Positions 7,001-48,940 of a stretch of 48,940 nucleotides of DNA are shown here, piece after piece; position 1 is the stretch's first letter; each line of letters begins with the position of its first letter. This DNA is from Diplocarpon mali (lineage: Eukaryota; Ascomycota; Leotiomycetes; Helotiales; Drepanopezizaceae). The position numbers were made by a program, and so were the translations under genes. Location of the stretch: positions 1 to 48,940 of the forward strand of contig JAENRP010000321.1 of NCBI GenBank assembly GCA_024741835.1, read 5' to 3'. Under the pieces are notes generated by a model. It was not told the DNA's origin. It made no database searches and saw only the letters and a list, made by a program, of their open reading frames with translations.

Positions 7001-7023
7001 ACTCCTAGGCCAGGACCGCGAGT
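7001..7023 (+). repeat. PAL motif, Copia-C copy 1
   Basis: 23-bp near-palindrome with arms ACTCCTAGGCC and GGACCGCGAGT around a single A. In the polyprotein frame it reads T-P-R-P-G-P-R-V. This is among the least mutated copies in the window. Confidence 0.85.
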
Positions 7024-7045
7024 CAATTCTAACTCTTACGATTTT

Positions 7046-7068
7046 ACTCCTAGGCCGGGACCGCAAGT
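7046..7068 (+). repeat. PAL motif, Copia-C copy 2
   Basis: Second copy, 45 bp (15 codons) downstream of the first and in the same reading frame, encoding T-P-R-P-G-P-Q-V. Arms are ACTCCTAGGCC and GGACCGCAAGT. Confidence 0.85.
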
Positions 7069-8100
7069 CGATTTAGGAGAAGCTGAGCTTCTAACTTTAA
7101 GAAAGAGAGGAAGACCTCCTAGTTTAAAGAACAAAGCTTACCCTTAGCCTTCCGAGAAAAGAGCTACTCGCTTAACTTATGCTCTTAGATTCAAAGCTAA
7201 TAACTCTAATAATAAGGAAGCCTATTTAAGCGCCTTCTATATGGCCTTACTCAACTCTCTATACCCAAATGACCCGAAAACAGTCGAATAAGCCTTCTCT
7301 TACGCTAATGCTAATAAATGGCGATCTGCGATCAACTTTAAGTATAATTCCCTCGCTTATAAGAATATATAGGTAATAGTAAAACACTTAAAACTCTTTA
7401 AAGACGATAGAGTACTTAGATTAAGGCTTATCTTTAAAATAAAAAGAGACTAAAATAGGGAAATCTCTTAATAGAAGGTCAGATTCGTCGTTTAAGGCTA
7501 TATATAATAATAAGGTTGAGATTATAACTAGACATTTGCTAAAGTATGCAAATCTGCAGTTTAGAAGATCGCAATTACGCTCGCAGCGCTATATAACTTT
7601 AAGCTAGATTAATTCGATATTAAGATAGCTTTCCTTAATTTAAAAGCTAACTCTAATATCTATATTAAATTACCTCTTAGATATACTTAAGATAAGGTCG
7701 TTCTTTTATCTTAAGACTACTATCTCAAGCTTCTTAAGGCCTTATATAGCTTAAAGTAATCTCTACAACTATAGTAAGAAAAGCTACGGTCTAAGCTATA
7801 AAAGCTCGATTTTCAACCTTTTGATACTAACAATTATATATATATCAACCGCGCCTCTCGGATTCTTATTATCACTTATATCGACGACTTCCTTATAGTA
7901 GCTAAGAAAGGTAATATATATGATAAGTTCAAGAGAGATCTTCGCAACCTCTTTAAGATTATAGGTAGCGAACCGGCTAACTACTTTTTAAAAGTACGTA
8001 TAGTTAAAGATTGATAAAATAGAACGATCTCACTTTATTAAGACGCCTATATTAATAAGGTTCTTAAACGTTTTCATATATATAGGTTCTATACCGGTAA

Positions 8101-8292
8101 TCGATATTCACGTGAATATAGTTGAGTACTTATTATTAAAAAGAATCTATTATAATATCTGTCTATTTCTATATGACTGAGATAGTACCTTTATACCTAT
8201 GAATGTCCTCCCTTCTATAGTCCCTCCTAGCCGCATATAGATATCCTTCCGAAGTCCTCTGGCTAAACAGCCGTCCGAAATACATACGAAAC
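8101..8292. other. Unassigned, less AT-rich spacer
   Basis: DNA between the end of recognisable Copia-C RT and the plus-strand Gypsy-B LTR. It is richer in G+C than its surroundings and keeps several CG and CA dinucleotides, so it looks less mutated. A perfect 16-bp palindrome (atattcacgtgaatat) lies at 8104-8119. I recognise no coding sequence. It could be a remnant of single-copy host DNA or of another element that was not repeated enough to be mutated. Confidence 0.5.
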
Positions 8293-10330: not shown

Positions 10331-10772
10331 TATAAATGGACTTAAAGTATTATTATTAGCTTTAGTAGATACTAGAGCCCTTAGTTACCTATTTTTAAAT
10401 CGTTCCCTTTTTATACATCTTTCGAAAGCGACTAGCTTTAAAATTCTTCCTCTTCTAGCCTTTATTCCTATCTATAGATTTTAAAATACTATTCGCATAT
10501 AAGCTATATACTATATACGCTTTCACTTAATAATTAATAGAAGGCGTATTTATAACTGCCCTTAGGTTATTCTCAACCTAGGCTAGTATAATACTATTAT
10601 TAAAGTTAAATGGATATGCTAATTCTAACTTAAACTTAATTTAAAGGAAAACTAATTTATATAGCCTTTATATTACCCCTTATTATCCTAATTTATAAAG
10701 GAAATCCTTATCTATCTTCTCCCTTTTAAAGGACTTTGGATCCGATCTAATTATTAAGCTAATATTAATCGT
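10316..10772 (+). pseudogene. pol: Gypsy-B protease and linker, interrupted by Copia-A
   Basis: Start of the Gypsy-B pol frame. The aspartic-protease active site reads V-D-T-R-A-L at about 10365-10382 (expected D-T-G-A; GGA to AGA is a G-to-A change). The frame continues to 10772, where Copia-A is inserted, and resumes at 32761. Its frame is -1 relative to the zinc-knuckle frame, so a -1 ribosomal frameshift or separate start was probably used originally. Confidence 0.75.
10768..10772 (+). repeat. Target-site duplication of Copia-A (left)
   Basis: atcgt directly before the Copia-A LTR; the identical pentamer follows the other LTR at 32756-32760. Confidence 0.9.
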
Positions 10773-10967
10773 TATTAAGATAGGTGATACAGCTATCACT
10801 CTGATGTATTATCATATGACCCTATTGCTTAGTCAGTAGGATATTGATACGTATATAGCTGTAGGGAAGAAAGGGGTAACCTTCCTTCCTTAACTCTTAC
10901 TAATATATCGACTATCGACCTTTAGAAGCCTCCTTTACCTACTGCGCCGACTTACTTAAGCTTAATA
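10773..10967 (+). repeat. 5' LTR of Copia-A
   Basis: 195 bp, paired with 32561-32755 at the same length. It starts TATTAA (ancestral TG turned TA) and ends caata or taata (ancestral CA turned TA). The two LTRs differ mainly by C/T and G/A changes. A TATA-like stretch (gtatatagc) lies near 10852. The sequence just inside, ggttataagcc, is a plausible worn primer-binding site of the tRNA-iMet type common in Copia. Confidence 0.9.
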
Positions 10968-11368
10968 GGTTATAAGCCCCGGATAAACCGATAATAGATT
11001 ATTAACTTCCCTTAGAAAGCACTTGCGCTGCAACTATTAGTAGGAAGTTGAACGAGACTTATAGTAAGAGGCGAGCAATCGGCGAATAAGAGGTGTAATT
11101 CCCTATTTAGCCAACCTGTATTATAAGAGGTATGATTCCTTGCTTTATAACCCCTTTGGTACTATAAGAGGTGTGATTCCTTGCTTTATTATATTTTATA
11201 AGAGGTGTGATTCCCTGCGTTATAGCCTAAAAACCCTTTTCGATAAGAGGACTTCCTCCTTATTTAATATTTCTATAATACCTGCTATTTAATCATTTCA
11301 ACTTTTCGATAGGAGGAGTGCCTTTAACTATTTAATTTATTTGATTTTTTAACGCAATTCTATTCGAA
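10968..11368 (+). repeat. Copia-A leader with imperfect tandem repeats
   Basis: Untranslated leader between LTR and gag. From about 11085 to 11235 a unit of roughly 34-41 bp recurs four times (each with ataagaggtgtgattcc or a close variant, at about 11086, 11122, 11163 and 11197), with weaker relatives near 11240 and 11313. A role in RNA packaging or dimerisation would fit the position but is inference. Confidence 0.7.
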
Positions 11369-12895
11369 ATGGCAATAGCTTCCGATTCCGATCGAAACAC
11401 TAGACCTAGAGACCTCTAACTCTCTTAAAAGAACTAGTAATAATAGTTTGACAATTTAAAGCTTTACTTTAAGAGCAAAGGCATTAAAATAGCGATTTAA
11501 AAGACACTTATTAAATATGCGAGAATAGCCCCTTATACTCCTTCTATCGATTCGTTTACTTCTACTTTAATAGCTAATATAACTGCTAAGGATTTGCTAA
11601 ATATATTAAATAAGCTTAGCTTAAGAGCTTTAGTAGATAATAATTAAGAACCCTAAAGGCAGATTTTAAATATAGAAAAGGAAAAGGAGTATAGGCTGGC
11701 CTTAGCTAAATGTAAGCTTAAGATTAATAGAGGTTTAAGCGATAAAGACTGAGATTTTATTTAAATTTATAATAATGCAAAGATAAGATAGGATACTTTA
11801 AAGGTAAAATACTCTTATACAACTGCCCTTAATACCTAGTATCTGCTATAGCAGATCACTTTATTTTAATATAAAAAAGACAAAGATAGTAAGGATATAG
11901 ATATAAATATAGACTTTACTTAATCTATACTACATAAAGCAAAGAGGAGAGTAAGAGTTGCAAATCTTAAGATAGCTATAACTTTTAAGGAAACTTAGCT
12001 TTTTAATTTCCTACTTAATAGCCTTCTTCCTAAGTTTGCTATTGCGAAATAATCTCTTCTTATCTAACCTAACCTTAAGATTTATAAGAAGATCGACCTC
12101 CTTTAAACTATTAAGTAAGACCTTAAAGGACGCTTTAAATCGGCAAATACTGCATTATAAGGCAACAATAAGCCTGAAAAGAGAAAGGAGCGCGGGACAA
12201 GCCCTTAAGCTTATTAGGGATACTACTTCTATAATAGTACTTATAATATTACTAATTATAAAGTTAAAAGGCAATTGATTGATATAATTGCTAGCTTTAA
12301 TATTAAGAAGCAATTAAAGCAGAAGTTAAGAAGCAAACTATCCTTATCCTACTAAAGGCCGTAACTATTAAGGAAAGGCAAAGGAAAAGGCTATTTAGCT
12401 AGAACTTTAGCAGATACCTTTAATAAAGATAGTAGGTTATCTAAACCTAAATCTACTTCTAATAATTTAGATAATAATTATAATAAAAATACCTATATTT
12501 TAAAAGCCGATCTTTATAAGATCCTTGAATCTAATTGATATAATAATACTAATTGTATAGTATATATGACTAATAAACCCTACCTATTTAAAGGCCTACT
12601 TATTAAAATAAAAAGGCGCTCTATTAAGGTTAGTAGTAGAAGGTTATATATAGACTCAATAGGTATAGTAAAGATGAATATCGCTAGCATTTCTTTCCTT
12701 TTATAAAATGTTCTCCTTATACTTAGCTTAAGTATCAATCTTTTATCTAGCTATAAGATTTATATAGAATTGAATTATATAGGAGTTTTTAATAATCAAT
12801 TTATATAGTTTATAAATAATAACTATAAAGTAATCTTTAAGGCTAAAATTAAAGATAGACTTTATATTATTTTAAAGGTAATATTATAGAAATTG

Positions 12896-13365
12896 ACTCC
12901 TAGGCCAGACCTATAAGTGGATTCCTTTAAGGAAAGTATACTCTTTACCCTAATACAATTAAGTAAGGATAAGGAGAATAGATGGACTCTTAAGCTAAGA
13001 TCGCAAGTAAAATTTGCGAAAATAACTCTTAAGCTAAAACTATAAGTAGATTATAAAGTATCTTTAAAGATAACTCTTAAGCTAGGACTATAAGTGAATT
13101 TAGTAGAAATAACTCTTAAGCTAAGATTGTAAGTAGATTTTGCAAATTCGCTAATAATGACTCTTAAGCTAAGATCGCAAATGAAATTCGTAGAAATAAC
13201 TCTTAGGCTAGGACTGCAAGTGAAATTCGCGAATTTATTAAAGATGACTTTTAAGTTAAAACTGCAAGTAGATCTTACTATTTCTAGGAAATCGACTTTT
13301 AAGCTAGGACTATAAGTAGATCTCGCGGTTTTATTAAAAACGACTCCTAAGCTAGGCTTATAATT
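12896..13365 (+). repeat. PAL array, ten copies, in frame in Copia-A
   Basis: Ten 23-bp PAL copies start at 12896, 12986, 13025, 13073, 13112, 13160, 13199, 13247, 13295 and 13343. Start-to-start distances are 90, 39, 48, 39, 48, 39, 48, 48 and 48 bp, all multiples of three. All lie in the polyprotein frame and encode a repeated octapeptide (T-P-R-P-D-L-Q-V in the first, T-L-K-L-x-x-Q-V in most others; the first, third and other copies may have stops at Q). The array sits between protease and GAG-pre-integrase. All ten have the same orientation. Confidence 0.88.
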
Positions 13366-14302
13366 AGAAAATAGTAAAACCTTAAACTGCTATTACTAGT
13401 CCTTTCTAGCTGCTAATAATAAAGTATCGACTAATAATAGGCTATTAAAGCTATTAGAAGCCGAAAGCTTATTAAAGTATTAGCTAATATATAGAAGATT
13501 CGCATATTTAAAGCTAGAGAAATTAAGGGGCTTATATAAGGTTTTAACTTTAAAATAGAAGATCTAAGTATTAAAGGATCGCCTAGTATACCGAATTTGC
13601 AAGCTAATAAAACTTTAAAATCAGATGCAAACTAAGCTTAATCTATAGAAAGATTCAATACTAGCGCTAATATTTATTAATACTATTAGACTATTTATAA
13701 CTTTAATTAAAGGAAATAATTGGTTTTCTTAAATAGTAGATAACTCCATTTAGTAAATATAGACTATTTGCGCTAGGACTAAATCTAAGCTTATAGAAAA
13801 GCTAGAAACTTAGAAAGTGATAGAGGAACGCTAGACCTAATTAAAGCTAATAGCTATTAGATTTAATAACGCATTAAAGATTAAGGCAAAGCTTAATAAA
13901 TAGGTAAAATAAGGAGTTTGCTATAAACTAACTATAATATATAAAGGTTCTTATTAAAATAGCATTATTAAGCGAAGCATTTAGTAAGCAAAGACTAACT
14001 ATCGTACTCTATTGCGAAATGCTAACCTACTATTAGAATTCTAAGACCTTACAGTTAAGGCAAATATATACTTACAAAATAAAACAAGTAGTAGACTAAT
14101 AGTTAATAGTACTTAAATATCACTATATAAGGCATATTTTAAATAGAAACTAAGCCTAGACTATATCTGCGTCTTTAAAAGCGTCTGCTACTCTTATATT
14201 AGCCTAAAGTCCTAGCCTATAGGTATAAAAAGTAAGAAGCTAATAGATTAAGGTAAAGAGTATATATTTATTAAGTATATTAAATAGATAATAAAGCAAT
14301 AG

Positions 14303-14308
14303 ATAGTA
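14303..14308 (+). repeat. Target-site duplication of Gypsy-A copy 1 (left)
   Basis: atagta before the LTR, repeated at 30101-30106. Five bases is usual for Gypsy elements, so one base may be a chance match. Removing one copy restores the Copia-A frame exactly. Confidence 0.85.
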
Positions 14309-14551
14309 TAGAGACCTAAGATGGATAGGTCTTGTGATATATATCATATAATTGACGCAGGATAGTAGGAGGATAAAAGGGCCATCTTCTGTATATAGAG
14401 ATAGCGCGTATTGCTATAGTATTAAATATACCCTATACTTAGGACTTATTCCTAATATCTTATCTAAGAGAGCCTACTTATAGTGCTTCCTCCTTTTGTT
14501 TTTAGGTCTTCCCTTAGGCCTATTCTTATATTATCTCCCTTTAGTTTTATA
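14309..14551 (+). repeat. 5' LTR of Gypsy-A copy 1
   Basis: 243 bp, identical in length to the 3' LTR at 29858-30100. It begins TAGAGACC (TGGAGACC in copy 2, so TG turned TA here). A TATA-like tatataga lies near 14391-14398. The sequence just inside, TAGTGACCTACGC from 14553 (TGG turned TAG), is a candidate primer-binding site. Confidence 0.92.
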
Positions 14552-15299
14552 TTAGTGACCTACGCAAGGACCGATTTCTTAAGATTTCCATCCTTATATA
14601 ACCTTATTAATCTTTTGGTTTGTAGATAAAAGACTGGCCTTTGAAATACGTCTTTGAAATACTTATAGTATTTTAATTAACTTTAAAACCCTTATCCTTA
14701 ATTGCCTAGTTACTTAAAACTATTGATTTTCGTTTAGCAACTATTAATAACCTTAGATTTTCCCTTTTCAGCTCTGCTTTGAAAACCCCTATTTTCTTTT
14801 TTAACTCCGAGATTCTCGGAATTTTCGGCTTTTCAATATGAAAAGTTTAATAAACCTTATAATAGCAATCTCAAATAGTAGTAGTTTTAAGTACTTAAGT
14901 AATACTAAGCGCAAACTCTAATAGGAAGTGCCTCCTTAGAATCTTTAGAAATCCGAATCTGATAATTCAGCCGCCTTAGCTTAATAGAACTTTAAAAATT
15001 GCCTTAGAATCGTCTCTAAAGACCCCTTTATTCTAAAGACTAATAGGAATTGGCCTAAAGGCTAAGAAGAATCTTAGATATAAACCTTATCTTAGAAATT
15101 GGTCTTAGATTAAGTAAACCTTATTTTATTGCGATTAGTTGCAACGCTCCTATTAGCTGTTTAGTACCTACTTAGAATCTTTTAGCAAACTCGGATTAAA
15201 CTTTTAGCAGAATCTAGAATTCTACTCCTAGGCCTAGCCTATAAGTGGAAGGATAAAAAGATATCTTTAAACAACTTAGGACTACTACTTACTTTTTTA
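14552..15299 (+). other. Gypsy-A copy 1 leader
   Basis: Noncoding region of about 750 bp between LTR and gag. Apart from the candidate primer-binding site at its start and one PAL motif at 15224-15246 I see no feature. The PAL copy here is noncoding. Confidence 0.65.
15224..15246 (+). repeat. PAL motif in Gypsy-A leader
   Basis: Arms ACTCCTAGGCC and AGCCTATAAGT; noncoding, upstream of gag. Counterpart in copy 2 at 34575. Confidence 0.82.
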
Positions 15300-18119
15300 A
15301 TATTAATACTTGAAAATACTAATAATAATAATAATTTTAAACTTTTTACTAACCCTTTATCCGAATCTTTTCAAACTCGTCTTAATCACTTTAAGATTAA
15401 CTCGGATTCTGAACGCTTTTTAAGCCCTTTTGAATTTCGAAGTACTCCTTTTAATAATCAATCTTATAATATCAAAGCTTCCCCTTTGCCCTTTATAGAT
15501 TCTATTAACCTAGACAGTTAGTATAAAACGATAATAGCCGCATTTAGGACTATTATTAGTCACTTTCCTCTTCCTAGTTCCCTTAGCGCTCCTCACTTTA
15601 TAGGCGCTAATATTACTAATTTCCTTAAGTAATATAAGAAAACTTATTACGATTTTGGTATTATATAAGAGGATATGATTTCTCGACTTCCTTGCTATTA
15701 TAATTATATAAGTAAGAATATTATTAAGTCCCTCCTTAAATGGAAAACTTATAGTTTATAAGAACTCCTTATTAAGGCCCTTAAATCTGAATTTCGCGAA
15801 TTTGATAGATAGTAGATTCGCAATACCTTAGCTTTCTTAAAGGAATTTATTCTAGTCACTTATACTCCTAAGGAACTTAAAAACTACTATTGGACTTTTA
15901 CTTGTATATTAAATACCTTAATTAGCTAGAAAATACTTAGCGAAGTTGAAAGAGGCTGCCTTTTCTTACTTAGATTACCTATTAGCCTTTGAAACAAGAT
16001 CATTAAGCATTTTAGGATTAATGAGTAAGACCTTATAACCTTTGCCTTATTTAAGGAATTCTTAGCCTTTACTTTAAAATCAGATCTTAATAAGAGAACT
16101 ATTAATGCTATAGAGTAGGAAAAAGCCCTTACTCCCTTTTATACTAAAGACCTTAAGAGCCTGGTCTAAGAATACTTAAAGGTTCTAGAAGTTATAAAGG
16201 AGGCAAAGAAGAACTTAGTAGTCATACCTTTTACTCGCGGTCCTGACCTAGGAATAAGATCTAACCTTAAAATTAAGGAATTTAAAACCTAATTTGCAGA
16301 ACTCCGAATCTAAAGCTTAGAAACTAGGATTAATAATCTCTTATAGGAAAAATAGCATATTCCCTAATTTGGTAATAGATAAAACTCGGCTACTATAAGC
16401 CAACCTAGTGGTTCCTATTATCAGACTCTTGCTTTTTGTCATTTAGAATAACTAGCTAATATAAGAACGCAATAGCTGGCTAAAGAAGGAGGAATTAATC
16501 CCAACTAGCACTTTGCTAATATCAATACTATAGGGTACTAAGGAAACGGCAATAGAAGACAACTAACTTGCAACTTTTGCAATAATAAAGAACCTAACTG
16601 CGCTCTATATAAGTATTGCAACGATTGCCCTCTTTTCCTTCGTTTTATTAACACTAGGGTTATATATATTAATAAGTATAAGATGCTTTGCATTAAGGAT
16701 CCTAGGCCAGAAGCTATCCCTATTAAAAAGTACTAGAATCGCTTATAGTTATAGACTGTTCGAACGATGATATATAGTATAAAATAGGACGAGAATTTAG
16801 TCGAATGATAGCGTATTATAGATATAAATATTAAAATCCCAACTTATATATATATAAGTCCAATTAGCAATCTACCTAAGGGAGTTCTTAAGGACTTAGC
16901 TTCTAATTAAACAGCTATAGAAGTTAGAGGCATTTCTATCTTAGGATAGGTTAATAATAATATATTTGCTAATATTAATGCTATTTCTATATCTAGAAAC
17001 CCTCGGAATACTTAGTGTCCTTCTAGATCTACCACTCCCTTAATACTAATAAAACCAGCCAAAGTCTAAAAATCAATGCGTATAACTTAAGAATCTTAAT
17101 ATAGAGTTTAAATGTTAAAAGATACTTAACAATCTAGAACTGCAGTAGACGAGGATAAAGCCGATATAGTAGACAAATTGATTAGAGATATAATAGACAA
17201 AGATAGCTTTAAGCTTAAAGATTAAGAAGTTAAAGTTATTGCGCAGACCCTTAACCTTAAGCGAAAGAGATAGATATTAAAATAGGAGAAATTCGTCGAC
17301 AAATACGCCAGTTCAATTACAATAGAGAAAGCTATAAAGAATATTATAGCCTAGTAAATTAACCTTATATTTAAAGACCTATTTAGTTTAATTAAACGCT
17401 TTAATAAAGTGCTAGGAAAGCATATCCCAGTTGCTTTTAAAGATTTGAATAATAATAAGGAAATGGAAATTGTAATGCAAAAGAACTTTAAGAAGCACTT
17501 AGCCTTAATTAAATATCTCTAGATTATAAAAGACAAAGGAACCCAAAGGTACTATAATATTATAGCAATGGCTTTAATATCTCAGAATATTAATTGAAAT
17601 TATTCAATAGTTGCAATAAAAAGCCCTATTATTATTTATTCTATAGAAGAATCAGTTAAAGCAAAGGCTTTAATCAATTATAGTTCAGAAGTTAATACAA
17701 TAACTAGAAAAGTAGTAGAAATAGCTCAATTGACAATTGTTAGCGATTAACTCCTTATTTATTCGACTATCTTTAGATTAAAATACAATTTTAATAGATA
17801 GGTGAAAAACGTAAAGGTTAGAATTAGAAGAATTGTTAATTATATTGACTTTCTAATAATAGAGAATTCTTTAAATAATATTCTTTTAAAAATGCCCTTT
17901 ATTTTAAAATCTTAGCTAATATTTAACTATCCTAGAGATAGGCTTATAAAAGCTAGCCTTTAGAATACGGATCGATCCTTAAAAGGATAAATAGTTATCG
18001 CAAGAGATATAGTCGAATTCTAAAACGAGGTTTTAGGAAACGATTAGCTAGCATAAGGGCTAGGCTTAATGCTAGTAAAGGAAGGCATTTAGCAAGGAGT
18101 TATAGCGAAAGAAAGGTGA
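15300..18119 (+). pseudogene. gag: Gypsy-A gag-protease remnant (copy 1)
   Basis: One frame of about 940 codons. The start is inferred at the ATA of 15300 (ATG with the G-to-A change expected from RIP). A poly-Asn N-terminus follows, then a capsid-like region to about 16200, then a cysteine-rich box at about 16569-16628 of pattern C-X2-C-X6-C-X5-C-X2-C, which is not the canonical CCHC knuckle. An aspartic-protease-like motif lies near 17661-17700 (A-L-I-N-Y-S-S-E-V-N, expected D-S-G-S-E-V-N). The frame closes at TGA 18117 (TAA in copy 2). Pol follows in the -1 frame. Stops in the body are mostly TAA/TAG at Q or W positions. Confidence 0.83.
16233..16255 (-). repeat. PAL motif in gag, reversed orientation
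   Basis: Reads ACTCGCGGTCC then GACCTAGGAAT, with the CCTAGG arm on the right, i.e. opposite orientation to most copies. In frame, encoding T-R-G-P-D-L-G-I. Confidence 0.82.
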
Positions 18120-18148
18120 GTTTATCGATTTTGAATAATAGTGATTTA

Positions 18149-18171
18149 ACTCGCGGTCCTAGACTAAGAGT
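18149..18171 (-). repeat. PAL motif in pol N-terminus, reversed
   Basis: ACTCGCGGTCC and GACTAAGAGT-type arms; in the pol frame it encodes T-R-G-P-R-L-R-V. It lies about 30 bp after the start of the pol frame. Confidence 0.8.
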
Positions 18172-18310
18172 CAAATCTAGAATTTTAAAAAATAGTATAA
18201 TCGGCGTTTTATTAGCTTAATAATTAAGAAAAAAGAAAAATAAAGTAGAAAAGAGAGTTCGTTTTACAAATTTCGATAATTCACTAATCATTTTAAAAAA
18301 CCTAAAAACT

Positions 18311-18333
18311 ACTTATAGGCCAGACCTGCAAGT
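18311..18333 (+). repeat. PAL motif in pol linker
   Basis: ACTTATAGGCC and AGACCTGCAAGT arms; encodes T-Y-R-P-D-L-Q-V in the pol frame, 162 bp (54 codons) after the previous copy. Confidence 0.8.
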
Positions 18334-20277
18334 GAAAAATAATAAAATTACTAATAACATTTCCATCTATATACTTTAAATTAATAACTTAGAAAATCTT
18401 TTATTTGTTTTTAAAAAGGAAAATTCGGATCGTTTTATAAGATTTGATAAAAAAGGAAAGAAGTAGAGAAGTATAGTACTAGCTAATATTCGAACTATAT
18501 ATAAAAGCAAGGCTGATAAAGTACAACCGGTAGATTAGGGAATCTTTAATGGCTTAAAGCCTAGAGGACTAGATGATTGGTTTAAATAAAATGAGAAGCT
18601 TCGACCTCTGAAGCTAAGTGGCAAATTCGATAAGTTTATTATAAGTAGATTTTCTAATAAACCTATTAGATATCGACTAATAAAAGAACGTTTCGATATA
18701 CTGAAAATTAGAAAAGACTTAATAAAGTAAGAACGCGAACTACTTTATAAAACCTTAACAAATTGAGAAGGCGCCTTAGCTTTTGACTAAATGGAACTTG
18801 GCTAAATTCAAGAAGAGGTCACGCCTTATATTAAGATTAAGACAATACCTTATAAAGCCTAGTAAGAGAAAACATTCGGGGTCCTTAAAGCTTTTTAAGA
18901 AAAGGTAATCGAAATGTTAAAGGATAGGTTAAAGTAAGGTATTCTCGAGTTTTATAATAGCCCTTATAGGAACAAATGGTTCTTAGTTGCTAAGAAGGAG
19001 AAGGGAACTTATAGACTAATAACAGTAGTAGTAGAGATGAACCGAGTAACTGTTAAAGACGCCAACGTTCCTCCGAATATAGATAAGTTCTTAAATGAAT
19101 TTGTAAGATTAACCCGCAGCTCTTTTATTAACTTCTTCTTTAGATATAACCAATTTATTCTTAATATTAAATCGAGAGATATAATAGTAATTCAAACCCC
19201 TCTTAAGCTACTTCAAATGATAAGATTACCTTAAGGGGCTATAAATTCGATCGCTTAATTTGTCTAAGTAATCTATAAGATACTAATAGATTGTATACCT
19301 AATATTGCGCTCCTTTATATAGATAATATAAGAGTAAAAGGATCAAGATCATTCTATAATTATAAAGAAGTTCTCCTTAGCATACGACGATTTATAATAG
19401 AACACATTCAGAACCTAGACTAAGTACTTATATAATTCGAAAGGGTAAAAGCAACAGTTGGTCCAAAGTTATAATACTATCTCCTATTAATAGAAATTAT
19501 TAGTTTCATTACTGATTCCAATAGCCGAAGTCCTTAGAGGGCTAAAGTACTTAAAATCGACAAATAGAAGAGGTATAATAATATGGCAGAAGCTTGCGCA
19601 TTTATTAGAGTTATAGTATACTATTGCATTTAGATCAAGGATTTCGCTAAAAAGGCAGTACCTATTTACTCCTTGTTTTAGAAAAGGGCTAAGTTTCAAT
19701 AGGAGAAACCTTAAATAGAGATTATAAAACAACTAAAGCAAGCGTTGCTTAAGGCGCCTTATTTGATTAAAATAGACTATAGAGCTAACGCTAGGCTAAT
19801 TATACTAATAGTTAATATAAGCTTAATCAAATAGGGTGCTATCCTTTAATAAGCTAATAGCTAGTAGAAAAGACATTTAGCTCGCTTTGAAAGTAGTCTT
19901 TAGAATCTAATAGAGACAAAGTATAATACTATTAAACGGGAATGCAAAGGCGCCCTAAAGGTAATAAAAAAGATAAAAAGCGACCTCTATAGCACTTACT
20001 TCATTTTCGAAACTAATACTAAAGTGCTAGTAAAACAATTGAATAGAGCTATAAGCGACCTACTAAGAGCCTTGCTAATAAAATGGATTGCTTAAATAAG
20101 ACTAATAGACTTTGAAGTCAAATATATTCTAAGAATGAAAAATACCGCTGCCGATAGCCTTTTAAAAAGAACTCGGCCCTACCCCTTTGATTTAATTAAA
20201 GAAGACGAAATAGATATTAATAAGTAGGTAGAAAACGAAGTTGGTTATCTATTAATATATCGCCTTAAAGGGACTCG

Positions 20278-20300
20278 ACTTATAAGCCCAGCCCGCGAGT
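20278..20300 (+). repeat. PAL motif between RNase H and integrase, other phase
   Basis: ACTTATAAGCC and AGCCCGCGAGT arms. Unlike every other coding copy it lies in a shifted codon phase, reading R-L-I-S-P-A-R-E-S, so here the DNA and not the peptide is what is shared. Confidence 0.82.
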
Positions 20301-21817: not shown

Positions 21818-22150
21818 ACGATTTCTTAGCCTATTAATTATCTTACCTTCCTTTAATCCTTATTTTTACATTTTTAGCAAGGTCGCCTCCTTTATTATTT
21901 AAGATATAGATCTTTTAGGATCACTTTAAATTCTTGCCTACTTTGACTTATTTTGCATTTTTAATATTAGCCTTTAATTATAATATTCCTATTACTTTCC
22001 TTAAATAATAAATAAAAAGTCCAATTTCCTTAATATATATATAGTAAACCTATTATAGCTTATATGCCCTTTTAATTCTTATACCCTATTGAACTCTCTT
22101 ATTTATACTACCTATCTTTCATAAGCAATATACCTTTAAAGAACTTACAA
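21818..22150. other. pol-X1 intergenic region (copy 1)
   Basis: About 330 bp, pyrimidine-rich, with a TATA-like run (atatatatatag, near 22035-22046) about 110 bp upstream of the X1 ATG. It could drive a subgenomic transcript for X1, which is inference. No PAL copy. Confidence 0.5.
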
Positions 22151-22975: not shown

Positions 22976-22998
22976 ACTTGCGGTCCTAGACTAGGAGT
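22976..22998 (-). repeat. PAL motif in X1 (1), reversed
   Basis: ACTTGCGGTCC and GACTAGGAGT-type arms; in frame, T-C-G-P-R-L-G-V. It lies at the position aligning with the X2 copy at 26899. Confidence 0.82.
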
Positions 22999-29584: not shown

Positions 29585-29599
29585 GAAAAGCGCATATAT

Positions 29600-32260: not shown

Positions 32261-32274
32261 TAGGCTTAAGGACG

Positions 32275-37470: not shown

Positions 37471-40400
37471 GTTTATCGATTTTAAATAATAGTGATTTAA
37501 CTTGTAGTCCTAGACTAGGAGTCAAATCTGGAATTTTAAAAAATAGTACAATTAGCGTTTTATTAGCTTAATAATTAAGAAAAAAGAAAAATAAGATAGA
37601 GAAGAGAGTTCGTTTTATAAATTTCAATAATTTACTAATTATTTTAAAAAACCTAAAAACCACTTATAAGCTAGACCTGCGAGTGAAAAATAATAAAATT
37701 ACTAATAATATTTCCATTTACGCACTTTAAATTAACGACTTAGAAAATCTTTTATTTATTTTTAAAAAGGAAAATTCAGATCGTTTTATAAGATTTAATA
37801 AAAAAGGAAAGAAGTAGAGAAGTATAGTACTAGCTAATATTCGAACTATATATAAAAGCAAGGCCGATAAAATACGACTAGTAGATTAGGGAATCTCTAA
37901 TAGCTTAAAGCTTAAAGGACTGGATAATTAGTTTGAATAAGATAAGAAGCTTCGACCTCTAAAGCTAGGTAGCAAATTCGATAAGTTTATTATAAGCAGA
38001 TTTTCTAATAAACCTATCGGATATCGACTAATAAAAGAACGTTTCGATATACTAAAAATTGGAAAAGACTTAATAGAGTAAGAATGCGAACTACTTTATA
38101 AAACCTTAATAAATCGAGAGGACGCCTTAGCTTTTGATTAGATAGAACTTGGCCAGATTTAAGAAGAGGTTACGCCTTATATTAAGATTAAGATAATACC
38201 TTACAAAGCTTAGTAAGAGAAAACATTCAAGGTCCTTAAAGCTCTTTAAGAAAAGGTAATCGAAATATTAAAGGATAGGCTAAAGCAAGGTATTCTCGAG
38301 TTTTATAATAGCCTTTATAGGAATAAATAGTTCTTAATTGCTAAGAAGGAGAAAGGAACTTATAAACTAATAATAGTAGTAGTAAAGATGAACCGAGTAA
38401 CTATTAAAGACGCTAACGTTCCTTTAAATATAGATAAATTCTCAAATGAATTCGTAGGATTAACCTGCAGCTCTTTTATTAACTTCTTCTTTAGATACGA
38501 CCAATTTATTCTTAATATTAAATCAAAAGATATAATAGTAATTCAAACCCCTTTTAAGCTACTTTGGATAATAAGATTACCTTAAGGGGCTATAAATTCG
38601 ATCGCTTAATTTATTTAAGTAATTTATAAGATACTAGTAGATTATATACCTAATATTGCGCTCCCTTATATAGATAATATAAGAGTAAAAGGATTAAGAT
38701 CATTCTATAACTATAAAGAAGTTCTCCTTAGCATATAATAATTTATAATAAAATATATTTAGAACTTAAACTAGGTGCTTATATAGTTCGAAAGGATAAG
38801 AGCAACAGTTGGTCCGAAGTTATAATACTATCTCCTATCGATAGAAATTGTTAGTTTTATTATTGATTCTAATAGCTGAAGTCCTTAAAAGGCTAAAGTA
38901 CTTAAAATCGATAAATAGAAGAGGTATAACGATATAGCAGAAGCTTGCGCGTTTATTAGAGTTATAGTATACTATTGCATTTAGATTAAGGATTTTGCTA
39001 AAAAGGCAATACCTATTTACTCCTTATTTCGGAAAGGGGCTGAGTTTCAATAGGAGAAACCTTAAATAGAGGCTATGAATCAATTAAAGCAAGCGTTACT
39101 TAAGGCGCCTTATCTAATTAAAATAGACTATAGAGCCAACGCTAGGCTAATTATATTAATAGTTGATGCAAGCTTAATCAGATAGGATACTATCCTTTAA
39201 TAAGCTAATAGCTAGTAGAAAAGACATCTAGCTTGCTTTAAAAGTAGTCTTTAGAATCTAATAGAGATAAAGTATAATACTATTAAATAGGAATATAAAG
39301 GCACTTTAAAGGTAATAAAAAAGATAAGAAGCGACCTTTATAGCACTTACTTCATTCTTAAAACTAATACTAAAGTGCTAATAGAATAATTAAATAGAGC
39401 TGCAAGCGACTTATCAAGAGCCTTACTAATAAAATAGATTACTTAAATAAGACTAATAGACTTTGAAGTCAAATATATTCTAGAAATGAAAAACACTACT
39501 GCTAACGGCCTTTTAAGAAGAACTCAGCCCTACCCCTTTGATTTAATTAAAGAAGACGAAATAGATATTAATAAGTAGGTAGAAAACGAAGTTAATTATC
39601 TATTAATATATCGCCTTAAAGGGATTTGACTTGCAAGCCTAGCCTATAAGTTAAATAAGAGAATTTTATTACCTAACTACTTAAGTGACTTTAAAGAAAT
39701 CGCAAAGTTTTTAATTATACTTAAATGACTAAAGACGGTTGCTCTTAAGGATTTTTAGAAATTCAAAGCTAAAGCTTTAATTTATCTAATATAAAGAAGA
39801 CGATTATTTAAAAGGAGTAATAACTTATTCCTTATATGACTCTACTTAAACGATAAAAAACTAAGGGCTAAGGCTATCTAGGATATTTATAAGGAAACTG
39901 GCCACTAAGGAGCTAAGTCTACTTACTATTAACTCTCGAGAAAATTCTTTTAAAAAGGCTCTTTTAAAGACTATAAAGCTTTTATAAAGAGTTGCATCCC
40001 TTATTAGAAATGAAAACCTAGTTATAAGGAAAATCCCTTATTCCTAACCTAGCTATTAGGCCTTTTCTATAAAGTCAGCCTTAACGTTATATAAGTACTA
40101 ACTACTAAGAATAGGATAATATATTTTATTCTAATAAAAGAAGACCTATTAGGATAGCCTAAAGGACGACCTTTAAGATCTGCTAACTCTGAATCTATTG
40201 CAAAGTTCCTTTAAAAAGATGTAGTCTATCGCTATAGACTTTTTAGCAAATTAACTATTAATAAAGGCCTTAAAAACAAAAGAGTAGTTAAAGCTTTCTT
40301 ATGAAAATATAGCATTAAACGGGTTTAAATCTTAGCGTATAACTCAAAAGCTAATAGAGTAGTAGAATAAGGATATTATAATATTCTTAATAGTCTATCT

Positions 40401-41168
40401 AAAGTTACTTGCAGAGGATTTAAAGATTAAATAAAATGCTTTTATAGAATACTCTTTACTTATCGAATAATAATCTATAAACCGACCGGAGTTATACTAT
40501 TCTTCCTTATTTATAATAAAGAGGCATAGCTCCCTTTTAAATCCTAATAGCCTATTTAAAGATTGTTTAACTATAGTTAAATTCGGAACTATTCCGATTT
40601 ACTTGTAATAAGATACTAATAACTTAAGCTCTAAGATATAAATATAAAGGAAATCATTTTATAAAAGAAATAATATTAGGAAAAAGCTAAGGAAGCGTAG
40701 GCTACTTCTAAAGTACTTAAAACGCACCCTATTCGAAAAGATGATCTTATCCTAGTTTACAATATTATAAGAAGTATTAATATATTAATAGATATTAAAC
40801 TTAACTATCGATAGCTTAGTCTATTTAAGGTTAAATCCAAGTAGAAAGAAAAGGGATACTATTCTCTTTAGGAACTTAATAGAGTTGATATTAAAGGAAC
40901 CTTCGCAGCCAACTGACTAAAGCACTTTTATTAATACAACTAGACCTTATTCCCCTTAGAAGACGAATTAGAAATTGATACAACCTCCGAATCCTCTACA
41001 AGAACTAATAGCAATATAAGCAATTTTAAACCCTTAGATAAAGACTAAGATTTTTCCAATTTAACTTATAAGCCGGTCTTATAAGTAAAGAATATTAAAA
41101 TACCTAACTAATCGCGACCTTAAGTTATTATTCTTAAAATATCTAAAGAACGCAAGCGGGAATACTAA
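37467..41168 (+). pseudogene. pol: Gypsy-A RT-RNaseH-integrase remnant (copy 2)
   Basis: Counterpart of 18116-21817 in the same -1 frame. The RT box is Y-I-D-N-I near 38667-38681, as in copy 1. At the codon of 21806 copy 1 has TAG while copy 2 keeps CGG, a direct example of a stop made by C-to-T and G-to-A change. PAL motifs at 37500, 37662 and 39629. Confidence 0.89.
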
Positions 41169-41501
41169 ACGATTTCCTAGCCTATTAATTATTTTACCTT
41201 CCTTTAATTCTTATTTTTACATTTTTAGCAAAGTCGCCTCCTTTATTATTTAAAATATAGATCTTTTAAAATCACTTTAAATTCTTGCCTACTCTAACTT
41301 ATTTTACATTCTTAATATTAGCCTTTAATTATAATATTCCTATTACTTTCCTTAAATAATAAATAAAAAGTCCAATTTCCTTAATATATATATAGCAAAC
41401 CTATTATAGCTTATATGCCCTTTTAATTCTTATACTTTATTAAACTCTCTTATTTATACTACCTATCTTTTATAAGCAATATGCCTTTAAAGAACTTATA
41501 A
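41169..41501. other. pol-X1 intergenic region (copy 2)
   Basis: Counterpart of 21818-22150; the same TATA-like run is present. Nothing further seen. Confidence 0.5.
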
Positions 41502-44500
41502 ATGGTTTTATCTACTGCGATAGAGGATAAATAAGCACTAGTTATAAACTTCTCTTAAGATAGTAGAGCTATTATATTATTAGAGAGCTTTAAATTAACC
41601 TACGCAGCCTTAGGAGATATAAAGTAATAAAAACTCCTTTTAGCTTATGCGAATGCTATTAGCAACCTTTTAACCTAGGTAGCCTTTGGAATTCTCTAAT
41701 TTAACGACTTCTTAACTAAAGAATTAAGACTTAAGGGAATCTTTAGAAAGGAATTCTTAGCTAATGCAAATTAATATATAACCTTAGCTAATACTTTTAA
41801 AATGGATTAAGATAAAAGAGAAGAATCTATTCGACGATTAGATAATTTAGCTATTGATAAGAGAGGACTCCTATTTTATTCGCGCTTCTTAATAAATATT
41901 GATTCTAATAATAGAAGACAAGTATTATTAAAAATTCTTAAGGAAAACACTCCTATTACTAGAGCTATTTAGATTCTTAATTTCTTTATTATTTAGGAAG
42001 GAGTAGTAAAATTCTAAGGTAATCGAATTCGCAGTTGCAGATTTATAAGCCTATTTAATATAGTACTTATAGCAGCTAATAAGGCTATAAAAAGATCAAA
42101 TTAAGCTGCAGATATTACCCTACTTAATAGTACTATTATTAATATGCTAAAGCTTTGCGCTTCTACTTATAGTTTGCTTATTTTAAAAGAGAACTGGACT
42201 TTTATAATAGGGTTTAAATAAGATTTCTTTAATAATAAAAAAAGGAATTAGTTATTTATAGTCAAGCCTGCCTTAAAATTCGCTTTTTAACTTAAAGATA
42301 TAATAAGTACTAAACTATATAATTTAACTTACGGTCTTAGACTAGGAGTTAGAAATGAGAATTTTAAAACTAAACCCAACTTGCCTTTTATTAAAATGAT
42401 TTTAGAAACCGCTATTGAATAAACTACTTAAACGCTTAGCGCAGCCTCTTTAGAATTTTCAGAATCTTTAAAGGACTCTCCTTTAGCTAAACGACCTATT
42501 TTAGCTTAACCTTTAAAAAGGATAGATCGTTTAATAGCTACCTTAGCTAATTTGCAATTTGAAACTAAAGGATTGCGCGCTCGCTTAGACTCCTTTCCTA
42601 ATAATTTAAAGGAGCTAATTCTTAACTTCTTTATATTTATATATAACCGTTTTAGAAACGATAATATAAGGGAAGACCCTATTCCTACTACTTTAAAGAT
42701 AATTAAGAGAGCCGTTAAATAGATTTAATAGCTTATTTTAAACGAGTTCGCCTTTATAGATATTATTCAATTCTTTAATAATTACAAAAGTTAAGAACCT
42801 AGTCTCTTAGATGCTAAGCGAGACTATTTTATCTTATAAAAAAGAGAATATAAAGAGGAATCTATTAATTAGGACATTTATAATTATAGTAATATACTTC
42901 AATCGGTTATTCTCAACCTTAAGCTTAAAGAATAATATAATATTCAAATGTCCTTTATAATAAAGACTCGCTTTTAATAGTATCTTCTTAATATAGGAAT
43001 TAAAGGGAGAAGACTTTGCGACTTTTATATTCGCTCTCTTTTGGTTTACTATAGTCTTAATTATAAAGGATTTGATATTAATAAAACTATTAAATACCTT
43101 GAACTTCTCTATATAATAGAAGATATCGATCTTTTTCTAATCTACTTTAATAATCAGTTCTTTATCTCTTTAAAGATATATAAATCTAACCTATTAATAA
43201 TAGAGGTATCTTTAGATGCTATAAAATTTAAAGCTGATCCTAAAGCCTTAAAGGCATTAGAGCTAATTAAATAGAACAATTCTTTCTTTTCAATATTATT
43301 AAGTAATAAATAGCAAAAGGAAATAAAGGAAGAAGGGTCAATTGTAATGCATAAACCCTTCGGATGCCGCTTTCTAATCGACAATTTTACTACTAATAAT
43401 AGTGCTTTTATAAGTATATTCCTCTTTATTATAAGATAAGAAGTAGAGATATACCTTTATTACTTCTGCCTTATAGATAACGCGACCTTTATACCTTCTT
43501 ATTTTCTTTATAATATAATATTTAGCCTTACTTAATAAGTCCTTTAGATATATTATAGACTCTACCTCTTAGCTATAATAGCGAAAAGTAGAGGAGCCTA
43601 TTAGCTTATAGCCTACTTTGAACCTCCTTAATTGATTAGCCTTAGTCTTTATAATTAAGTCGTTTTAATAAAGAGAGATATAAGTGCTATTAATAAAGAA
43701 ATTCCGATTTTCACTCGCAGTCTTAGCCTATAAGTCAATTTTATTAAAAAGCAAGTCTTAGATTATCAGATCCTATTAATTAGATAAGGGCCAGCTTTTA
43801 AAAGCCTTAATAAGTAGGTTAGCTCTTAATCGATTATAAAACTCATTCTATTTATAAAGAAGATAAGTCGATAGACTTCTTAAGCACTTGGTTTAAAATC
43901 TCAACTAGCTTAAATAATTGTAAAGTTAAAGTGAAAGGAGATCTTACGACCTATTACTAATAATAGCAATCCAATTATAGTAATAATGAAATAGGGACAC
44001 CTTTTTAAAATGCTTTCAGACAATTCTTATAAGACTAGTGGTTTTATAGCCTTTTATAACAATTATACAGCTATCTTTAATAAGAATACCTTAGAAAATG
44101 AGACTCGAATCTCCGATTTTATCTTTTTAATTTCTACTTTAAAGCAACCTCTAGTACTTTAATAGATTAATATAAGTAGAACTACTATATCTTTTAAAGT
44201 AGCTTTTCATCTTAAGAACTGTAGTAGCCTCTTTAAAGCTATTATTAGTCAATGCTTTTAAATGGATCTATTAGTTATAATCGAAGTATAAGAGTTATTT
44301 CTTTTTAATAAAGACGAATTGAAAATCTACCTTATAGAATATAATCAAAAGCTCTTTAATACCCTTATTAAGGCCTAGACAAACGTTATAAATACTAAGT
44401 CGCTTCTTTATAGACTTAAGTCTTAAGGATAGTATAATAAAATAAATGCTATCTAAGAGCCTAATATACTAATTAATAAAGGCATTATTATAAGAAAATT

Positions 44501-44870
44501 CGGAAAAGAGATAAACTGAGACTCTAGTATAGTATTAGACCCTAATTTGGGAACTAATCCCTTATTTTTACCCTTAAGCTTAGAAACGCCAAGACTGACT
44601 CGCGAGCCTAGCCTATAAGTGAGGTTGGACTCAGCTGACTTAAGCCTATAAGATGGTTTAAATGAACCTTAGTTACCAAATTTAAAAGTACTAATAGAAG
44701 ATCCTTTAAGAGAGGTCCTTAAAGCTGAAAAATCGCTAAGAAATAAGAACTAATATAAAAGAAGAAGACTCTAAAGTAATAATAGAACTAATAATTAAGT
44801 CGACTTGAGCTTAGAGAATCGAGTCTACTACCCTTCCCTTTGAAAACCATTTAGAAAGATTGCAAATTAG
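41502..44870 (+). pseudogene. X1 remnant (copy 2)
   Basis: Counterpart of 22151-25519, same length, same start and end codons. The piece 43041-43274 is uninterrupted (77 codons) and contains the conserved K-F-K-A-D-P-K-A-L-K-A-L block shared with X2. PAL motifs at 42327, 43713 and 44598. Function unknown. Confidence 0.8.
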
Positions 44871-45416
44871 AAGTTGAATTTTTTTTAAGGATTATCTACT
44901 TTCTATATACTTATACCTCTTTATTCTTAACCTATTATTCTATTCTATATATATTCTTTATTTACTTTACTCTTTATATAATTCATTCTTTGATTATTCC
45001 TTTTATATACAACTTTCTAATGCTTACCTTTGAAATGTCTTCCTTACCTTTGATAATTATCATTTACTAATTATAGGTCCTTATATGCGTTATACCCTAC
45101 TTTTATTCCCACTTCTAAGCTTATTATGCCCACTTTTCCTATATGTACTAGCGCGATTTCAAACTCTATAAATAAGCCTCTCCTTGTATTACGATTTTAC
45201 TTTTTTTACTTTTTCTATAATCCTACTAGACCTATAATACTAGCACTACTACTATTATCTTTTATTATTAATCTTTTCTAATATAAGCCTCTTATATTAT
45301 TAATCTTTCTTAAATAATCATCTCTTTATTTAGAACTACTCCCTCTTATTAAATAATTCATTATGGTACCACTAAGCTTAAGCAAGAGAGCTATACCTAA
45401 GAAGAATATATCAGTT
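44871..45416 (+). promoter_or_regulatory. X1-X2 intergenic region (copy 2)
   Basis: Counterpart of 25520-26064, with the same TATA box at 45166-45176 and the same pyrimidine-rich run after it. Confidence 0.4.
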
Positions 45417-48400
45417 ATGACTTTAGGCAGTAAACCCTTAAACACTACTAATAATAAACTAATATTAAAGGGTAACTTTTCATAGGATAGAAAAGCTCTA
45501 AGATTATTAGAAGATATAGTAAGCACTTATAAAACGTTAGGTGAAATAGAATAGCAAGTATTCCTAAACTTATCTATAGAAGTATTAAACTATAGAATTT
45601 CTACTATAGAAGAAGGATTTTTAAGCTTTGATGATTTTCTTAAGAATAAGCTTAAGACAAAAGGGATCAATTGTGAAAAATTTCTATAAGAATATTAAAG
45701 GTATACTAATTCAATGGATTTGTTTTAGAAAAATCGAGATAAAAAGAATAAGTATATAAAAAGATTATTGCAATTTATAAGTAGCACTTATAATATACTT
45801 TTCCAGACCTACTTTATAACTGATATTACTACTAATAATGCCCTATAAGGGCTTAGTAAAATCTTTAAGATATACTAACCTATAGTAAAGGCTATATAGG
45901 TATTAAATTATTTTACCATTTAAGAAGGTATAAAAAAGCTATAAGGAAATAGTATTAAAGGTAGAAAATTTATTAGGTTCTTAAGCACTATTATATACTT
46001 TACCATTTAGACTATAAAAGATAAACCCTTATAGTATAATAATTTTACACTTCCTAACCAAACTATTTTAGATATACTTAGCCTTTAATAGTCGTAATAT
46101 AGTCTACTTATTATAAAAGAAAAGATGACTTATCTTATTAAGTATATTATAAATTACTTTAATAATAAGTTAGAAAGATAGGAGTTTATTATTCCTATTA
46201 CCTTAAAAATGCTGCTACCCTTAGTAGGAATAACTAATAAGGAGAATTTAACTTATAGGCCTGGCCTATAAGTGGAATCAGCATATAAGGAGAATGTCCT
46301 TAAGCCGAAGGTGCCTATAATACTAGGAACTCAAATAGCTAACCTGCCTAACTACTATTCCTCTAACTTAGACGAATTTGAGTTACTATTTCTAAAAATA
46401 CTTTAAATACCTTAAATACTAATAGCAAAGAAAATGACTCGCAGGCCCGGCCTATAGGTTAATATACGTAATATTATAGACTTAGAAGATGAATTGTCTA
46501 ATAAAGAAATAGGCACTATTACTAATATGCTAGAAATTTTTAATAATACTAAAAAGGATACCGCCGATATTATATAATCTTTCCCTAAAGACTTATAAAA
46601 ATTTATTCTTAAATTCTATAAGTTAATAATAAAGTATTTAAGAAAAGAAGGTTAAGGAGAAGTCTTATTAGTATAAGAAGAGATAACAAGAGCTATTAAG
46701 CAGATTATAAAACTGCTATAAGACGAATTTTCTATAAATAATATTATATAGTTCTTTATTAAGTATAAGAAATTGAAAAGTAACTTCTATATTCTTAAGG
46801 AGAAATCCGAAGTCAATACAAATATCATCTCTATAGAATGTTATTAGGTCCCCTTTAATATAAAGATAATACTATAGTATAGCAATAGTTTTAAAATAGT
46901 AGTAATATTAGAAATAAAGATAAGACTTGCAAAGTTTATAATAGGAATATTTAAGGACTTCAATTTTAAAAAGTTCTATACCTTTTATAAATGCTAATAT
47001 GCGCAGTACTATAGATTGGTAATAATAGGCCTTACTAATAAAGATATATTATCTAATATCTATAAATTTTATACCGCTCTTAACCTAACTTTATTTTTAT
47101 TATATCTAGGAAATCATATAATTATAGCTACTAGTAATAGAATGGCAAGCTAAGTTAAGAAGGATATATCATTAGGCTTCTCTAAGTTCAAAGTAGTACT
47201 TAAAGCCTTTAAATTATTTTATAATATCGTATAAACCCTTGCTTAGTATAATACTATACTAACTATTAATAACTTTATATTATTCCGCAGTAAAGGCTTT
47301 TTAAATATACCTAAGTTATTTAGCTGCGCCTTTTTAAGCGCTATGCGCACGCATAGTCATAGTAATTATAGAAAGAATTCATTTTTAATATTAGTATAAG
47401 AAGAATTAGAAATGTACTAATACTACTTCTAGACCTTAAATAAGAAGCTAAACCCCTCCTCTGCCTACCTTTATAATATAACTTATAGCTTAATATAATA
47501 GATATTAAGGATATATTATAAATTATACTTAAGTGCTTTACTAACTTGATATAAGTCTTTATATAAACTAGTAATATATCCTAAGCCTATATAGTTTATT
47601 AGAATTGACTACTACTTAAAAGTTATTACTATTAAGATTAATACTAATATAAGATTTATAAGATTGATTCCTAGGCCTGGCTCGCAGGTTAATCCACCCG
47701 ATAATAGAACTATTAACTACTATATGATTTTAATAGCTAAACAATCGACCGGAGAATTCGCTATTTAGGAAAAATCTTATAAATTATCAAATCTTATACC
47801 TTAACGCCTTAAGAATACTTAATAGATCTTACTAAATCTGGCTCGAAATGCAGTATAATAGAAAGAATTAAATACTAAAGAGAAGATACTTCTAAAGGAG
47901 TATATCTCTAATAAGACGACTCTATTCTCTATATTTATTAGATAAGGCATATTTATTAATATAGAATCTGCTAAAGAACTAAGAAAAGGTGGCTTTCTTA
48001 CTATTAGCAATAACTATATAGAAGTTGTTAGCAATAACTTATTAGAGAATAGTATAGACTTAAAAGATTTTCTTATCAATTCTATCGGCATAAAGAGACC
48101 TAGTACTATAAGATAGAGTATTACTAAAGAATCGTTAGCTAAATTTTATATAACGCTTAGTATAATAAAAGGAGGCCTACTATCAAAGGCACTTATAAGG
48201 AAACAGCTATAAAACGATCCATTAGTAGTAATAATAATAAAGGAGTTATTCTCTAAAGATATGACTTAGTTAATAATATATTTAAAGAAGTATAAGTAGG
48301 AACTTTTTAATAATTTTACTTATACTTAAAAGCTAATTTAATAGTTAGAGCTATAGCTATATAGGGATAAGTCCTAGACTAAGACGAAAGGCACTAATAA

Positions 48401-48836
48401 TGATATTAAGGCTAATAATATAATCGATAAGACAATCCTTCTCGAAAAGTATAGCACTAAGAAACCTTATACTAAACCCTCTAATACAACTCCTAGGCCT
48501 AGCCTGCAACTCATATTAACTAAAGGTAAAGAAAAGGAAGTATTATCTATTGAATTGCCTGCCTTATCTCCTTCTATAGTAAAAGACTCTTTAGAAGATG
48601 ATAATAATAATAAAGAGGATAATAATAATAATGCTATAATATAAGTCTCTCTCCCTATTAGCAAAAGCTATTAAACTATACTAGCATCTTTACGAAATAC
48701 TAAAGCTCTTATAATACTAAGACCGGACTCTTTTAATATTAATAGTAAACTATTAAGAAAAAGTAGGCGCTCTATAAAGAGAGTATTATCTAATAATAGT
48801 TCTTCTTATCTCTTAAAGAGAACTAAAGAAAATTGA
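45417..48836 (+). pseudogene. X2 remnant (copy 2)
   Basis: Counterpart of 26065-29484, ending TGA at 48834. PAL motifs at 46251, 46437, 47667 and 48489. The Asn/Asp-rich tail is kept near 48595-48635. Function unknown. Confidence 0.8.
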
Positions 48837-48940
48837 TATCTAAGTTAGTACTATTTTTAATTGTTTTTACAACTCTATAGCTTATTTATTTATTTTGCTA
48901 GTTTCGTTTTTTGACTCCTAGGCCCAGCCTATAAGTGAAA
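48837..48940. other. Gypsy-A copy 2 tail, cut by window end
   Basis: Noncoding tail after X2, ending with the PAL motif at 48914-48936. The 3' LTR is outside the window. Confidence 0.7.

Follow-up and report, generated by a model that had tools for sequence, protein, structure and literature searches.

Rickettsia palindromic elements (RPEs) and the Wolbachia palindromic elements are palindromic repeats that lie in frame in protein genes and also outside coding sequence. In the published outlines, RPEs measure about 100-150 bp, and the repeats of both groups occupy tolerant sites of protein genes, with orthologues carrying repeats at the same sites (PMC3767692, PMC2229807). Here we describe a shorter unit, which we call PAL (palindromic element), in a 48,940-bp stretch of the fungus Diplocarpon mali (contig JAENRP010000321.1, our C321; hereafter the window) and in the 49.37-Mb assembly of 676 contigs to which it belongs. 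The preliminary description of the window had named RPEs as the closest concept, a comparison that has held: PAL, too, is a palindromic repeat found both in frame and outside coding sequence, with 15 of 16 coding site groups in phase 0 and its peptide inside open frames. RPEs, on the other hand, are about 100-150 bp long with a long stem-loop, bacterial, and reside in genes of their hosts, Rickettsia and Wolbachia, whereas PAL is 23-27 bp long, locked to one phase in coding parts, and carried by fungal long terminal repeat (LTR) retrotransposons of two superfamilies, Copia and Gypsy. PAL works like a protein-coding palindromic repeat, yet is not an RPE, because size, host and carrier all differ.

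Mitochondrial palindromic repeats are mostly intergenic. As summarized in their reports, the mobile palindromic repeats and hairpin elements of mitochondria, the first kind fungal, resemble PAL as short hairpin-like repeats in many copies (PMC7218506, PMC2800124), but they are mitochondrial, whereas PAL lies in retrotransposons and is coding and phase-locked. The Conserved Hairpin Site of GalEa is likewise a palindromic motif of fungal Copia elements, outlined in its report as 9 bp directly after the 5' LTR, replacing the primer binding site, in one place and one clade (PMC5445492); PAL differs in sequence from this CTGATCAGT-like motif and sits internally. Bacterial repetitive extragenic palindromic (REP) sequences share with PAL a palindrome of 20-40 bp and a high copy number but, as characterized in abstract, are extragenic and non-coding (PMC3733652), whereas PAL lies in coding parts of fungal elements. 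Nor does PAL, in the copies and sites compared below, show the precise empty sites or target duplications of miniature inverted-repeat transposable elements. In openly licensed papers, among titles and the beginnings of abstracts, we found none on such a unit in retrotransposons, and to our knowledge a protein-coding palindromic repeat would be new to eukaryotic elements.

The unit is discrete and spans about 27 bp, YN-ACTC(C/G)YRG(G/T)CC-N-GG(C/A)CYR(C/G)GAGT-NR. The conserved sequence is wider than the 23 bp of the two arms and central base: with the first base of the 23 numbered 0, a pyrimidine stands at -2 and a purine at +24 in all 26 lone representatives, several of which share a site and so are not all independent. 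Position 5 is Y and positions 17 and 20 are R in 26 of 26; in 25, T occupies position 2, where the Thr codon ends. The perfect palindrome previously proposed as the ideal, ACTCGCGGGCC-N-GGCCCGCGAGT, does not occur in the genome; ACTCCCGGGCC-N-GGCCCGCGAGT, with a C/C mismatch at positions 5/19, occurs 21 times. Among 199 sampled matches the arms most commonly form 7 of 11 pairs (58 matches); 17 form 10 pairs and three are perfect palindromes.

That the window is rich in this motif, put at 41 copies before, is confirmed by two profiles, one trained on the window (42 copies; threshold set at the best score among five simulated sequences) and one trained on a genome sample (38). With at most 7 mismatches to the earlier ideal, 20 places match in the window and none in 20 first-order Markov simulations. 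The genome-wide search that had been called for likewise returned many copies: a strict pattern matches 848 places in forward and 851 in reverse orientation (controls 0), a self-complementary pattern tolerant of changes of the repeat-induced point mutation (RIP) type matches 7,877 (control 0), and a pattern free of such changes matches 58 (control 0). The window itself is AT-rich (24-33% GC in 2-kb steps) and has no open frame of 200 aa, as expected from C-to-T change of a type that we infer to be RIP.

The genome sample consists of the window and loci L007-L037 (20 chosen for PAL, six GC-rich, five chosen for reverse transcriptase). Four LTR-retrotransposon families account for 190 of its 192 PALs (Copia-B 66, Gypsy-A 50, Copia-A 38, Gypsy-B 36). 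The remaining two belong to a repeat at L019 with about 40 genome matches (42 listed), taken for a Gypsy-A relative because the adjoining PAL maps to the Gypsy-A leader. Copies outside transposons were looked for, and none was found, most of the 7,877 places not having been listed one by one: six 8-kb stretches of GC 0.46-0.52, presumed genic (48 kb in total), have no PAL, and the only isolated match examined, C1:292109, falls at the corresponding site of a sequence related to the Gypsy-A leader (63-66% over full alignments). Further LTR elements of the sample, three stretches of Copia and one of Gypsy (L033, L034, L035, L037; 16 kb), are likewise free of PAL.

Between families, no flank similarity beyond chance was found outside the unit and a few bases: among 3,428 ungapped cross-family comparisons the best reaches 12 of 18 matches and none at least 13. 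Segmental transfer with long flanks was considered and is not seen in these comparisons. The earlier proposal of a short DNA unit common to unrelated Copia and Gypsy elements is thus upheld, at unrelated positions, as is its occurrence in both arm orders and in leaders, coding parts and tails. Its placement in Copia and Gypsy elements also stands, although the family names used before cannot be mapped with certainty onto the present ones.

In coding parts, 15 of the 16 site groups carry PAL in one phase (phase 0), which reads T(P/R)GPGP(R/G)V (P = 2.3e-6 under equal phases); phases were assigned from stop counts around each site, PAL itself being left out. The phase-0 groups are Gypsy-A 3846, 4008, 8673, 10059 (locally weak and assigned from the long frame), 10944, 12596, 12782, 14012 and 14834, the gag-like and linker groups of Copia-A, the Copia-B array, and Gypsy-B 908, 2683-2773 and 4690-4735; Gypsy-A 5975 is the sole coding group in another phase. 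Sites excluded as non-coding or unclear were Gypsy-A 921, 1930, 7410 and 15259, Copia-A 3583, Copia-B 5628, 5692 and 5756, and the two sites of the Gypsy-A relative. Counting 921 and 5628 as coding, sites at which a different phase has the fewest stops on one flank or both, gives 15 of 18 (P about 6e-5, by hand).

Where domains can be identified, coding PALs sit at polyprotein domain linkers. Those of the Copia-A linker lie between the SH3_retrovirus domain and RVT_2, and the best copy, an open reading of the same linker at L036, encodes LTPGPGPRVNSHSHDFTPGPGPRVNSNS there. Other Copia-A PALs are in a gag-like region (labelled by eye, no Pfam match), Gypsy-B PALs lie upstream of RVT_1 after a protease-like stretch (by eye), and in Gypsy-B copy L024 the linker that precedes the integrase region (labelled by eye) holds two.

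A shared in-frame DNA unit is present across two superfamilies. Four unrelated families carry it at unrelated positions and, in coding parts, almost always in one phase, and we read it as an RPE-like cassette. The explanation that we favour, with roughly even confidence, is a coding palindromic cassette that passed between families, was filtered by phase, amplified, and decayed by RIP. Such a unit would behave like a protein-coding palindromic repeat, and would have been transferred at the DNA or RNA level, by insertion or by template switching during reverse transcription, before the families amplified. In coding sequence it would have persisted solely at places, and in the phase, that accept or profit from a flexible Pro-Gly linker; retrotransposition would then have multiplied PAL to about 7,900 places, and RIP-type mutation would have decayed the copies. 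A bolder form of this explanation, which we put forward tentatively as a possibility with clearly less than even prospects, is a self-propagating 27-bp coding near-palindrome that moves between unrelated eukaryotic retrotransposon families, shared particles perhaps allowing template switching, and that persists in coding sequence in the phase of the Pro-Gly linker.

Within families PAL occupies fixed places. When flanks were projected between copies, the gap was exactly 23 in 344 of 418 cases and the smallest was 20, so that no precise empty site appeared; larger gaps fit extra array units. In a site-by-site table (Gypsy-A site 15259 lay outside its coverage) PAL is present at the covered sites except for array losses in Copia-B and Gypsy-B and one Copia-B copy below threshold. 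Tandem units are gained and lost, and in the Copia-B and Gypsy-B arrays unit number varies through deletions that join neighbouring PALs. At Gypsy-A site L017:8897 all 150 listed rows (150 of 460 candidates scored; span read by eye) keep three bases per query residue across PAL, with identities as low as 65%. In the Copia-A linker, where 149 of 204 candidates were scored and part of the 219 matches was listed, rows covering residues 1 to 254/255 span 720-795 bp against 765 in the query (by eye), so that, among the matches listed, at most about one 45-bp unit is missing. Diverged relatives yielded no precise empty site either. The absence of empty sites together with the fixed places suggests that the families had acquired PALs before amplifying; recent hopping is not demonstrated by these comparisons. 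A freely mobile miniature, one of the options raised before, is accordingly not supported so far, and the clean insertion boundary sought by comparing occupied and empty sites did not emerge from gap projection, site table, protein spans or diverged relatives.

PAL-free linkers support gain in the PAL families, without marking an exact boundary. The linker of Copia piece L033, from another Copia family, has no PAL, and a further Gypsy family of the window, Gypsy-C (633..2771, minus strand; aligned to Gypsy-B copy L024 at 58.6%), has none in the linker where L024 has two. The peptide is also missing, in a loose alignment, from the linker homologous to that of Copia-A in proteins P0002 and P0003 (metagenome) and in P0004 (Podosphaera aphanis). 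Among proteins, the Copia-A gag-like piece has a sole match, in Diplocarpon coronariae (82% identity over 51% of the query), and both matches of a Gypsy-B piece are from that species, whose published genome is summarized as about 51 Mb with 20.7% Copia and 5.7% Ty3 (PMC11527701). One annotated D. coronariae protein, P0006, which reads TTNPGPRVK, may derive from a Gypsy-B copy whose deletion stops within a PAL. A bacterial or viral source was rejected: the degenerate intact pattern is met in 14 stretches from prokaryotes, 10 of which are Streptomyces, and in one viral contig, and chance alone would give about 4 in 257 billion bases of even composition (by hand), more in GC-rich DNA.

Several observations weigh against a transferred cassette. 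No precise empty site is found within any family, and the insertion event and its exact boundaries are unseen. No spreading machinery for PAL was found. The comparison of Copia-A linkers is made where sequences align poorly, and two of the three proteins used come from metagenomes. Simple tolerance would predict a weaker phase lock, the intact unit being open in every one of its six frames (by inspection). Finally, the near-palindrome, including its mismatch, mostly follows from alternating Pro and Gly codons, so that coding explains much of the palindrome.

This last point is the core of the principal alternative, which we regard as unlikely without dismissing it: an element acting at the peptide level, in which T(P/R)GPGP(R/G)V is selected, e.g. 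as a hinge or protease processing site shared by polyproteins, and the palindrome is a by-product of Pro (CCN) and Gly (GGN) codons being mutual complements. The phase lock of 15 in 16, the position of PALs at domain joints and the lack of covariation between arms fit it well. All synonymous codings of TPGPGPRV form 7-10 of 11 pairs (7 or 8 in 84%) and never pair 5/19, which is the observed mismatch; codings of TRGPGPGV form 6-10, and same-letter shuffles reach 10 in 0.008%. Transversions between copies are most numerous at positions 8 and 14, and both these and the free positions -1, 11 and 23 are codon third bases. Ten pairs are reached, however, in just 1.6% of random synonymous codings of TPGPGPRV, the second codon base at position 4 also varies between copies, and the coding site Gypsy-A 5975 is in another phase. 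Coding is probably not the sole cause of the palindrome, because the tail copy is probably non-coding, T fills position 2 in 25 of the 26 representatives, and Y at -2 and R at +24 are invariant in these (not all independent). The Copia-A tail PAL has the full consensus, with no frame open in both copies examined, and its place near the 3' LTR is probably non-coding. This tail PAL is also often unmutated: 15 of 50 listed places with the unmutated pattern carry its letters and flanks (e.g. L036:396). Such probably non-coding tail and leader copies, the other-phase copy and the conserved third bases point to a shared DNA unit, and the restricted bases at positions 2, 5, 17 and 20 suggest common DNA descent rather than convergent peptides.

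A further reading is a DNA-binding site. Each half (YN-ACTCSYRGKCC) would be the half-site of a dimeric host or element protein, with many copies per element; the CGG-N7-CCG layout inside PAL resembles, as a layout, what we presume to be the kind bound by Zn2Cys6 factors. We rate this reading as improbable. Both arms carry the same degenerate half-site without covariation, leader PALs are retained between Gypsy-A relatives at about 62-72% identity, and in diverged relatives PAL has fewer transversions than flanking windows at all nine sites compared (ten were sought; one gave no usable alignment). This slower divergence is suggestive only: taken together, the sites show no significant constraint (combined P 0.25, from windows that are not independent), and in alignments below 78% identity transversions plus gaps are not lower in PAL (P 0.20). 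An apparent, about threefold conservation of PAL over its flanks (transversions, alignments below 78%) was discarded, as misregistered array alignments were mixed in. A binding site also leaves the coding phase lock unexplained, and most copies have their CGG triplets changed by mutation of the RIP type (58 unaltered against 7,877 places).

The RNA hairpin, another of the options raised in the preliminary description, could serve as a packaging or dimerization signal of element RNA and promote template switching between families; we consider it very unlikely. An intact copy forms a stem of 9 bp that includes one mismatch and is closed by a loop of 3 nt (-12.7 kcal/mol), a mutated but perfectly palindromic copy reaches z -3.2, and PAL is confined to retrotransposons in the sample. 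The z of the intact copy is only -1.5, however; of six natural 23-nt copies folded, three form a 9-10-bp stem and three do not, and no covariation of the arms exceeds chance columns among 26 representatives (largest excess 22 against 18.9, positions 8/14), so that the suggested arm-folding check gives weak support. Least probable of all, to the point of being hardly credible, is ordinary descent with tandem repetition, in which each family duplicated a chance sequence locally: fixed places within families and changes in unit number would fit, but the same 23-27 bp in unrelated superfamilies, at scattered sites and without shared flanks, refutes it as a full account.

In the window, the PAL-bearing elements are all on the plus strand. 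A Copia-A fragment (5786-8080) has two PALs by both profiles, a 45-bp tandem pair in the integrase-reverse transcriptase linker (7001-7023 and 7046-7068). A Copia-B element, recognized by BLAST to copies L011, L016, L019 and L025, is split by Gypsy-A copy 1 into a 5' part (10757..14310) and a 3' part (30104..32762). The former carries a phase-0 array (12896..13365; starts 12896, 12986, 13025, 13073, 13112, 13160, 13199, 13295 and 13343) with mid-array spacing of 39/48 bp, and the latter three tail copies (32275-32422; starts 32275, 32336 and 32400), array and tail copies belonging to one element. Gypsy-A copy 1 (14311..30103; 15.8 kb, LTRs 90.8% alike over 240 bp) is nested in it between 5-bp target duplications GTATA (14306-14310 and 30104-30108), and L011 shows the unsplit Copia-B site. 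Its PALs start at 15224, 16233, 18149, 18311, 20278, 21713, 22976, 24362, 25247, 26899, 27085, 28315, 29137 and 29562. Gypsy-A copy 2 (33660..48940), cut by the window end, has them at the same places (34575, 35584, 37500, 37662, 39629, 41064, 42327, 43713, 44598, 46251, 46437, 47667, 48489 and 48914). The genome-trained (window-trained) profile gives 2 (2) for Copia-A, 7+3 (9+3) for Copia-B and 13 and 13 (14 and 14) for the Gypsy-A copies, those at 13025, 13160, 21713 and 41064 being found by the window-trained profile only; positions 1-5785, 8081-10756 and 32763-33659 have none.

Gypsy-A is unusually long, with a second low-stop frame of roughly 7 kb after pol; seven pieces of it had no Pfam family. 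Overall, nine of ten Gypsy-A pieces had no family in Pfam and one fell below the cut-off, and four of ten further pieces of the four PAL families had one. The Copia-A fragment is flanked by a large inverted repeat without PAL (3309-5785 and 8293-10769; 89% complementary over 2.5 kb).

Copia and Gypsy elements are generally regarded as separate evolutionary lineages. A short coding unit shared at their polyprotein linkers would be evidence that they exchange modules smaller than a domain, whether functional or parasitic. With about 7,900 places, its spread and coding filter can be counted in strains and relatives. If the tentative self-propagating form is true, PAL would parasitize elements that are themselves parasites, or else serve the polyproteins as a common adaptive module.

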